This document shows positions 59,119 to 61,206 of a DNA stretch of 64,000 nucleotides, in pieces. The DNA comes from Candidatus Hydrogenedentota bacterium (GTDB taxonomy: Bacteria > Hydrogenedentota > Hydrogenedentia > Hydrogenedentales > JAJRTN01): assembly GCA_024278275.1 (NCBI GenBank), contig JAJRTN010000118.1, positions 24,263 to 88,262 on the forward strand, read 5' to 3'. The notes beneath the pieces are model-generated. The model searched no databases, had not been told where the DNA came from, and saw only the letters and a program-made list of their open reading frames with translations. Numbering within the stretch: position 1 is the stretch's first letter; every line of letters starts with the position of its first letter. A program made the position numbers and the translations under genes.

Positions 59119-59577
59119 TTACAGGATCTGCTGATTGCTCATGCTCTGGATGGGCAATTCATCGAACTCGCCGAATTCATCGTCATCCTCGGTCACTTCA
59201 AAACTGCTTACGGCCAGGACCGCGGCGTCTTTGAAAAAACTGCCTTTGACGGTGACGGTTTTGTCCCGGTTCTCCTTGCCCATCAAAAGCGCCATGGAAG
59301 CCTTGTTGGGCAGGTAGTGGAGGGTTTTCCCGGCAAGTTCCTCAATGACCTCGCCGTCGGCGTCCTTTGCCTCGGTGACCTTGAGGGCGTTCAGGGCGGC
59401 ACACGTCTTGTCTGCCCCGTCCACTTGGTCCTTGGCAAGGGTGACCAGCAGACCGTAGTTTACACCGGTCACGGTCACGGGAACCGCTTCCGGGGCGTCC
59501 TGGGCCAGGACCTGCGAGGCACCCAGGGTCAACACGATAGTCACGGCAAGAGTTGCGGTGAAAAGGAACTGCTTCAT
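59119..59577 (-). CDS. Hypothetical secreted protein
   Basis: Signal peptide MKQFLFTATLAVTIVLTLGASQVLAQ; acidic C-terminus; no family recognised. Confidence 0.65.
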   Translation of the reverse strand: MKQFLFTATLAVTIVLTLGASQVLAQDAPEAVPVTVTGVNYGLLVTLAKDQVDGADKTCAALNALKVTEAKDADGEVIEELAGKTLHYLPNKASMALLMGKENRDKTVTVKGSFFKDAAVLAVSSFEVTEDDDEFGEFDELPIQSMSNQQIL

Positions 59578-59698
59578 TATGCTGGTCTCCCTTTGAGAAA
59601 ATGTTAGCGCGGCGTTGGATTGCGGCAAGTACCCGCGCATACCCCGGCAAGTATACAATCTGACGGTCCATGGCTTCCAGATATTTCTTGTGGGGAAT

Positions 59699-59727
59699 TT
59701 GCGCAGGGGTAATCCATATTGTATACT
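59699..59727 (+). promoter_or_regulatory. Sigma70-like promoter of the leu leader
   Basis: TTGCGC-N17-TATACT about 20 bp upstream of leader ORF. Confidence 0.55.
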
Positions 59728-59745
59728 ACGATCAAAGTGAGTGCC

Positions 59746-59835
59746 ATGTATACAAATTCGAAGCATAACCCCAACCTGCTGCTCCCACTCCTCCTCGTGG
59801 AGGAAAGCAGGTTCGTTGTGCCTCGAATTTCCTAG
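59746..59835 (+). CDS. leuL: Leucine leader peptide (29 aa)
   Basis: MYTNSKHNPNLLLPLLLVEESRFVVPRIS; codons CTG CTG CTC CCA CTC CTC CTC GTG; followed by terminator and a leuA-type gene. Confidence 0.85.
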   Translation: MYTNSKHNPNLLLPLLLVEESRFVVPRIS

Positions 59836-59904
59836 CGATTTACCCCGATAACGGGTTAACCCTATTGGAGGCCACGGACCGAAAGGTCCGTGGCCTCTTT
59901 TCTT
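59773..59904 (+). promoter_or_regulatory. Leucine transcription attenuator
   Basis: Hairpin AACCTGCT(59773-59780)/AGCAGGTT(59806-59813) with inner CCTCC/GGAGG overlapping the Leu codons; possible antiterminator GTGCCTC(59818-59824)/GAGGCCAC(59868-59875); terminator 59870-59904. Confidence 0.8.
59870..59904 (+). terminator. Attenuator terminator
   Basis: GGCCACGGACC-GAAA-GGTCCGTGGCC-TCTTTTCTT. Confidence 0.92.
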
Positions 59905-60036
59905 ACGCGTTCCGTTCGAAAAGGAGGTGATGTTTTATGGATTTGGGGCTCGTGTAGTTCAAATCCACCCGCTTCTCCCCATGCGTATCCATCCGTGAAC
60001 CTTTCCATTTATCCAAACGCATGAGGAGACCGCACC

Positions 60037-61206
60037 ATGAATCCGAGGATTCGCATTTTCGATACAACCCTGCGCGACGGGGAACAGACCCCCGGCGTCC
60101 ATTTCAGCGCCGAGGACAAGGAGGCCATCGCCCAAGCCCTGGAGGCTTTCGGCGTGGACACTATTGAAGCGGGTTTTCCCGCCTCGTCACCGGGTGACTT
60201 TGAAGCCGTGCGGCGGGTGGCCGCCGTGGTTCGCCACGCCGGGGTGGCGGCCCTGGCCCGATGCCGTCCCGCCGACGTGGCCGCCGCGGTGGAGGCCCTC
60301 CGCGATGCCGCCCATCCCGTTCCACACCTGGTGATGAGCGTGTCCGACGTCCACCTGAAGCACAAGGTGCGCATGAGCCGTGCCCGCGCCGTTCGGGCCA
60401 TCCACGAGAGCGTCATGGAGGCGAAACGCCACATGGAAGAAATCGAGGTAAGCCTGGAAGACGCCACCCGGGCCGACCCTGTTTACGTGCGCCAGTGTGC
60501 CCAGGTCGCCGTGGAGGCCGGCGCCACGCGCATCAATATCGCCGATACCGTGGGCGCGGCCCTGCCCGACGAGTTCGCCGCCCTGATCGCCGGGGTGGTT
60601 GCCTTCTTGCCCCCGTCCGTGCTGGTTTCGGCCCACTGCCACAACGATATGGGACTGGCCACGGCGAACACCGTCGCCGCCGTGCAGGCCGGCGCGGACC
60701 AGGTGGAAGTCACCGTCAACGGCATCGGAGAACGGGCGGGCAATGCCGCCGTGGAGGAGGTGGGCATCGTGCTGGCCGCGAAGGGCATCGCCGCGACCGG
60801 GCTCGACATGACACGAGTCCAGAAGGTGAGCGCCCTGGTGGCCGAACGAAGCGGCATCGCCGTGCAAGCCAACCACCCTGTCGTCGGCGCCAACGCCTTT
60901 GCCCACAGTTCCGGCATCCACCAGGACGGCATCCTGAAGCACGCCGCCAACTACGCCTGGATTACGCCGGAAATGGTTGGGGCCAAGGGACACCGCATGG
61001 TGCTCACGGCACGCTCAGGCCGCAAGGCCGTCTTCCACGTGGCCCGCGCCATGGGGATGCCCGTTGCCCCGGAAACCGGCGAAGCGCTTTACAGCGCCTT
61101 CCTCCGTCATGCCGACCGGGCGGACGGCCCCGTCACTCCCGAAGCCCTGGCGGGCATCATTCACCGCCTGGCCCCGAAACCCGCTCGACAGACCATGCAC
61201 CCCTAG
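60037..61206 (+). CDS. leuA: 2-isopropylmalate synthase-type enzyme lacking the C-terminal regulatory (LeuA dimer) domain
   Basis: RIRIFDTTLRDGEQTPGVHFSAEDKEAIAQALEAFGVDTIEAGFPASSPGDFEAV; SAHCHNDMGLATANT; HSSGIHQDGILKH; 389 aa only. Confidence 0.85.
   Translation: MNPRIRIFDTTLRDGEQTPGVHFSAEDKEAIAQALEAFGVDTIEAGFPASSPGDFEAVRRVAAVVRHAGVAALARCRPADVAAAVEALRDAAHPVPHLVMSVSDVHLKHKVRMSRARAVRAIHESVMEAKRHMEEIEVSLEDATRADPVYVRQCAQVAVEAGATRINIADTVGAALPDEFAALIAGVVAFLPPSVLVSAHCHNDMGLATANTVAAVQAGADQVEVTVNGIGERAGNAAVEEVGIVLAAKGIAATGLDMTRVQKVSALVAERSGIAVQANHPVVGANAFAHSSGIHQDGILKHAANYAWITPEMVGAKGHRMVLTARSGRKAVFHVARAMGMPVAPETGEALYSAFLRHADRADGPVTPEALAGIIHRLAPKPARQTMHP

Follow-up and report, generated by a model that had tools for sequence, protein, structure and literature searches.

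The window, the 64,000-nucleotide stretch of Candidatus Hydrogenedentota DNA analyzed here, carries a compact series of putative regulatory features on the plus strand, arranged ahead of a gene of the leuA type:

59699-59727, plus strand: sigma-70-type promoter, from sequence (TTGCGC at 59699-59704, N17 spacer, TATACT at 59722-59727)
59746-59835, plus strand: leader peptide ORF of 29 codons (ATG at 59746, TAG at 59833-59835; product MYTNSKHNPNLLLPLLLVEESRFVVPRIS)
59755-59829, plus strand: highly conserved three-tier protector hairpin P1-P3 (alignment, RNAalifold, covariance model)
59755-59761 with 59823-59829, plus strand: P1, AAUUCGA.GCAU/AUGCCUCGAAUU type, with outer stem AAUUCGA/UCGAAUU
59773-59780 with 59806-59813, plus strand: P2, nested 8-bp helix AACCUGCU/AGCAGGUU
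Between the P2 strands, plus strand: P3, CUCCUC..GGAGGA
59818-59824, plus strand: antiterminator 5' strand GUGCCUC, shared with the P1 3' strand; pairs with 59868-59875 in a helix that covaries
59842-59856, plus strand: small hairpin ACCCCGAUAACGGGU (CCCCGAUAACGGGG type) in the antiterminator loop (predicted fold; CCC/GGG kept in most relatives)
59867-59904, plus strand: intrinsic terminator with 14-bp stem, GAAA loop and U-rich tail (fold, sequence)
59920-59966, plus strand: second conserved element, comprising a Shine-Dalgarno-like sequence, a mini-ORF and a hairpin, between the terminator and leuA
59920-59931, plus strand: Shine-Dalgarno-like 12-nt sequence AAAGGAGGTGAT
59937-59957, plus strand: mini-ORF MDLGLV
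59939-59945 with 59960-59966, plus strand: mini-ORF hairpin GGAUUUG/CAAAUCC
60037-61206, plus strand: short leuA-type gene, 389 amino acids, HMGL-like and HCS_D2 (NCBIfam, Pfam)

Most of this arrangement had been described in the original prediction, and the promoter-like hexamers, the eight-position Leu-rich run of the 29-codon ORF (LLLPLLLV: six Leu, one Pro, one Val), the perfect nested 8-bp helix, the bulged pairing that would sequester the terminator 5' arm and the LeuA-type identity of the downstream product can all be read at these coordinates. The predicted perfect 11-bp GNRA terminator with a T-rich tail stands as regards the terminator, its GAAA loop and the tail, but its stem is longer, at 14 bp including one G-U. 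Three features had been overlooked: the outer P1 stem AAUUCGA/UCGAAUU, the small hairpin in the antiterminator loop, and the element at 59920-59966.

A minus-strand ORF at 59119-59766 crosses the leader; we did not accept it as a gene there, and its likely start lies near 59577. The remaining minus-strand frame (59119-59577) diverges from the leader and encodes a protein of ~150 amino acids that begins like a signal peptide and has no NCBIfam match.

A conserved promoter-like site and leucine-rich leader ORF

The six Leu codons of the leader ORF are clustered at codons 11-17. The maximum number of Leu codons per eight is six in frame 0, as against two and zero in the other frames, a value reached in 0 of 1000 shuffles. 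A frame-0 cluster is present in all 30 leaders scored, divergent ones included, with maxima of 4-7 Leu per eight codons in ORFs of 26-32 codons; this maximum is matched by 0-2% of shuffles in 29 leaders and by 8% in G032, in which a second frame has an equal maximum. Hairpin indels, found in eleven sequences, are multiples of three in 8 of the 11, and the frame-breaking ones (G048, G028, and G032) all lie 3' of the Leu run. Upstream, a TTGN3-N16-18-TAN3T promoter-like site occurs within 65 nt of 27 of 31 leaders, compared with 1.0 expected from shuffles.

Mutually exclusive terminator and antiterminator helices

The terminator stem (59867-59880/59885-59898) consists of 13 perfect pairs and one G-U, followed by a U-rich tail to 59904. 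It was called by script in 30 of 31 relatives, weakly in G018 (-7.4 kcal/mol) and not at all in G008, and the stem covaries among relatives. Its 5' arm, GAGGCCAC, is also the 3' strand of the antiterminator, in which GUGCCUC (59818-59824) can form a helix with GAGG(C)CAC (59868-59875), leaving a single C bulged. Folding without the terminator 3' arm yields the antiterminator, enclosing the small hairpin, and folding with the 3' arm yields the terminator.

Compensatory changes are apparent in the antiterminator, from GCCUC:GAGGC to GCGUC:GACGC (G063), to GCCUU:AAGGC (G016), and from U-A to C-G (G009/G059). When the helix (B:C) was fixed at five pairs across 18 distinct sequences, 92.2% of cells were paired, with changes on both sides in three of the five pairs; the outermost pair fails in six of the 18, and slid registers are only 14-59% paired. 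The covariation score is 0.237, compared with 0.150 ± 0.019 for shuffles, of which 1 in 500 reaches 0.237, a count that is not a probability because the 18 rows were extracted and registered by hand with hand-guided patterns and kinship between the sequences was left in. The fixed five-pair count replaced a broader test of duplex energies in 28 genomes, in which native and swapped B:C windows did not separate (-10.42 versus -10.37, p 0.42) because GGCC of the terminator arm finds pairing partners in many places and one of the windows had been set wrongly. Support for the antiterminator comes from the five-pair helix only.

A predicted leucine attenuator

Clustered end-product codons, a terminator before the gene, an exclusive and covarying antiterminator and a gene of the matching pathway thus occur together at this locus. 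We consider it very probable that the leader is a ribosome-mediated, leader-peptide transcription attenuator that senses leucyl-tRNA and controls the short LeuA; expression and termination are predicted, and the sequence itself establishes which parts are present, in what order, how they are conserved, and that the antiterminator covaries. The architecture originally proposed is thereby supported: relatives compared for lost Leu codons or compensatory changes retain clustered Leu codons and a covarying antiterminator helix.

On this model, RNA polymerase would start near 59734 and a ribosome would load on the leader ORF. With ample charged tRNA-Leu, the ribosome would reach the stop codon at 59833 and cover 59818-59824, allowing the terminator at 59867-59898 to form and transcription to end near 59904. 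With scarce charged tRNA-Leu, it would stall in the Leu run (59776-59796) and keep P1-P3 open, so that GUGCCUC could pair with GAGG(C)CAC and polymerase would read through into leuA. In the absence of translation, P1-P3 would sequester the antiterminator strand, again leading to termination.

Conservation of the protector hairpin

RNAalifold recovers P1, P2, and P3, with changes on both sides in the inner P1 pair and mostly in P2. The region has a predicted minimum free energy of -77.3 kcal/mol, compared with -46.4 ± 3.9 for shuffles (z -8.0). In an alignment of 22 relatives, 33 of 85 hairpin columns are invariant, and the motif CUCCCAC 5' of P3 is conserved although it is unpaired in the consensus. 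At the sequence level, the hairpin is conserved beyond what its codons account for, a property overlooked previously. Such strict nucleotide conservation exceeds what attenuation requires and counts against the attenuator reading.

An alternative reading takes the hairpin for a riboswitch, a T-box or a leader bound by a protein, the Leu codons then being fortuitous. In its favor, this degree of conservation is unusual for leader peptides, and the actinobacterial LEU element 5' of leuA presents a comparable doubtful case (PMC1262725). However, the Leu codons outlast sequence divergence, and an Rfam search returned no Leu_leader or other family above the gathering threshold, with only a tRNA found within the window. 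Weaker matches were terminator-like or chance; the best of them, to the Burkholderia sRNA ncS54 (23.3 bits versus 43), was rejected because the alignment covers nothing beyond the small hairpin and the terminator. We regard this explanation as improbable.

A short LeuA lacking the leucine-binding domain

The 389-residue protein lacks the allosteric, leucine-binding LeuA_dimer domain (PF08502), which is present in the second, canonical LeuA of the same genome. Its best models are those of 2-isopropylmalate synthase; because the scores fall below the model cut-offs, the exact reaction is one that we infer, the product probably resembling 2-isopropylmalate synthase in function but being devoid of the leucine feedback domain. 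The short LeuA proteins form a group separate from canonical LeuA in our tree, in which some rows are very long-branched. A short LeuA gene lies 3' of the leader in G000 and 17 relatives. Inspection by eye upstream of the canonical leuA revealed no Leu leader, only a tRNA-like stretch.

A second conserved element between terminator and leuA

The pattern AGGAGGTGRTGTNNNATGGANNNGGGGCT, representing the element at 59920-59966, occurs in 17 of 68 genomes of the phylum, once in each and only at the leader locus; looser versions bring the total to 24 sequences. The mini-ORF keeps M[DE]xxL, and its length is not conserved, spanning 6 to ~70 codons. A 7-bp stem with the usual 14-17-nt loop is present in about half of the 24 sequences and is not significant in the rest. 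The element accompanies LeuA, degenerate forms included, and none was seen at orphan leaders without LeuA, apart from a degraded copy beside a duplicate leader in G033. As a guess, the mini-ORF and hairpin probably add a translational layer to the control of leuA. Pairing of the Leu run (CUCCUCC) with the Shine-Dalgarno-like sequence was rejected as a general cause of conservation, since divergent leaders without CUCCUCC, examined by eye, nevertheless keep that sequence.

Distribution in Hydrogenedentota

Of 68 genomes of the phylum, 26 have a hairpin match to a covariance model (R1) built from 22 sequences; with blastn, the leader turns up in 24 of 60 relatives, the window's own genome counted, two of them by a 32-nt terminator match only. 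In five further genomes that the model does not match (G020, G009, G059, G016, and G002), the same gene is preceded by a divergent Leu-rich leader with a terminator; G010, which the model matches weakly, has one as well. These six share a Leu-codon cluster, an ORF of 26-29 codons, a stop 10-14 nt past the antiterminator strand, and a terminator. Such a leader lies upstream of every near full-length short LeuA (16 genomes), and also in two genomes in which the gene has an internal deletion or truncation.

A GTDB-wide pattern scan returned 18 stretches, 16 of which are titled Candidatus Hydrogenedentota or Hydrogenedentes, one "uncultured bacterium" and one "Rhodothermaeota". The latter two appear to correspond to G008 and G028, both in the window's own order. 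The scan pattern was strict and some known members escape it, so that absence of the leader elsewhere is not proven by this result. The stretch titled Rhodothermaeota, L067 (VFKU01000513.1), appears to be identical to G028 and groups with Hydrogenedentota; its title is probably a mislabel.

Leaders with degenerate or absent leuA

The hairpin also persists in seven genomes with a degenerate leuA and in five with none. In six of the former (G036, G012, G039, G044, G050, and G008), the downstream frame encodes 251-329 amino acids, stops early and lacks RDGEQ along with other conserved motifs; in G007, a 104-residue LeuA fragment follows. The LeuA-like ORFs of L035, L049, L052, L056, and L046 (G036, G044, G050, G012, and G039, respectively) are ~300 amino acids long, still open, and have lost their C-terminal part. 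For G044/G050, dN/dS is 0.36, as against 0.10-0.25 for intact pairs; by this sequence measure, constraint is weakened, not absent. No LeuA was found 3' of the leader in G017, G018, G003, G032, or G065, and in G028 the contig ends. Leaders without leuA in G017, G028, and G032 (L057, L048, and L055) have what are apparently the same two upstream opposite-strand genes, which suggests long persistence in place. In G033, a second copy of the leader (L126, G033:C35), with terminator and degraded second element, precedes an unrelated gene.

That several genomes have no intact leuA 3' of the leader speaks against the attenuator reading. Hairpin identity is nearly equal within genomes with intact, degenerate, and no LeuA (0.78, 0.77, and 0.72, the last for four orphan genomes), and in four genera of a single family the promoter, hairpin, and terminator are retained with no LeuA found downstream (with the G028 contig ending). 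This persistence hints at a role of the hairpin's own. Together with the conserved, unpaired CUCCCAC, it raises the possibility that the hairpin, although descended from an attenuator, now acts chiefly in trans, as an RNA or peptide in its own right, with control of leuA having become secondary or been lost in many lineages, as for rnTrpL/peTrpL of Sinorhizobium. We hold this candidate role to be rather unlikely: the orphan leaders of G018 and G065 look decayed, and the remaining orphans retain GCCUC:GAGGC-type pairing and Leu codons. Moreover, leaders of other families with intact LeuA have lost the conserved sequence and kept the attenuator. Only tentatively might the attenuator RNA now be an independent, Leu-codon-bearing regulatory RNA or peptide, selected after leuA became a non-catalytic relic or disappeared, with the leader and not the enzyme being the conserved part of the locus.

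The decayed-looking orphans of G018 and G065 and the G033 duplicate without leuA would also fit an unregulated remnant of a lost gene, consisting of a constitutive promoter, a short ORF, and a terminator. Conservation across families, and a covarying helix that competes with the terminator, make this very improbable. Leader-peptide attenuation remains our preferred reading.

Discussion

Attenuators of the leu, ilv, his, and trp operons of Proteobacteria, such as E. coli leuL, combine codons for the regulated amino acid with a protector/antiterminator/terminator series and a biosynthetic gene downstream. The Hydrogenedentota leader resembles leuL-type attenuators in its cognate-codon ORF, its helix series, and the gene that follows. 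It differs in having no Rfam match, in belonging to another phylum, and in preceding a single gene and not leuABCD; it has in addition a second mini-ORF and hairpin before leuA and a hairpin sequence conserved across families. The kind of regulator is already known, whereas the lineage, the second element, and the evolutionary persistence are new. The locus goes beyond a textbook attenuator in its short LeuA beside a canonical one, its second conserved element, and a hairpin that outlives leuA.

The actinobacterial LEU element is described as a pseudoknot in which Leu codons and the leuA Shine-Dalgarno box together form the base stem, and which classical attenuation does not account for (PMC1262725). 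Both systems have a Leu-codon leader ORF 5' of leuA and a CU-rich Leu run able to pair with a Shine-Dalgarno sequence, but the leader described here has a conserved terminator and a covarying antiterminator. For rnTrpL/peTrpL of Sinorhizobium meliloti, action in trans has been shown (PMC7298713). That system, in which an attenuator RNA is likewise made from its own promoter and terminated, may provide a precedent for a trans role, which here is suggested only by conservation without leuA.

A 2010 survey noted that no amino-acid leader peptide had previously been shown outside Proteobacteria and Actinobacteria, and added Firmicutes (PMC2965389). Our search of literature naming Hydrogenedentes or Hydrogenedentota, conducted mostly outside subscription papers, found no report of attenuation, in agreement with the original remark that such a system is not usually described in this lineage.

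If correct, our interpretation would extend leader-peptide attenuation to a phylum for which the literature searched holds no such description. Its pairing with a LeuA that lacks the leucine feedback domain would mean that control has moved from the enzyme to transcription. The leader alignment offers compensatory changes in competing helices, and the genomes in which the target gene is intact, degenerate, or gone would provide a natural series for testing the fate of a regulator after gene loss.
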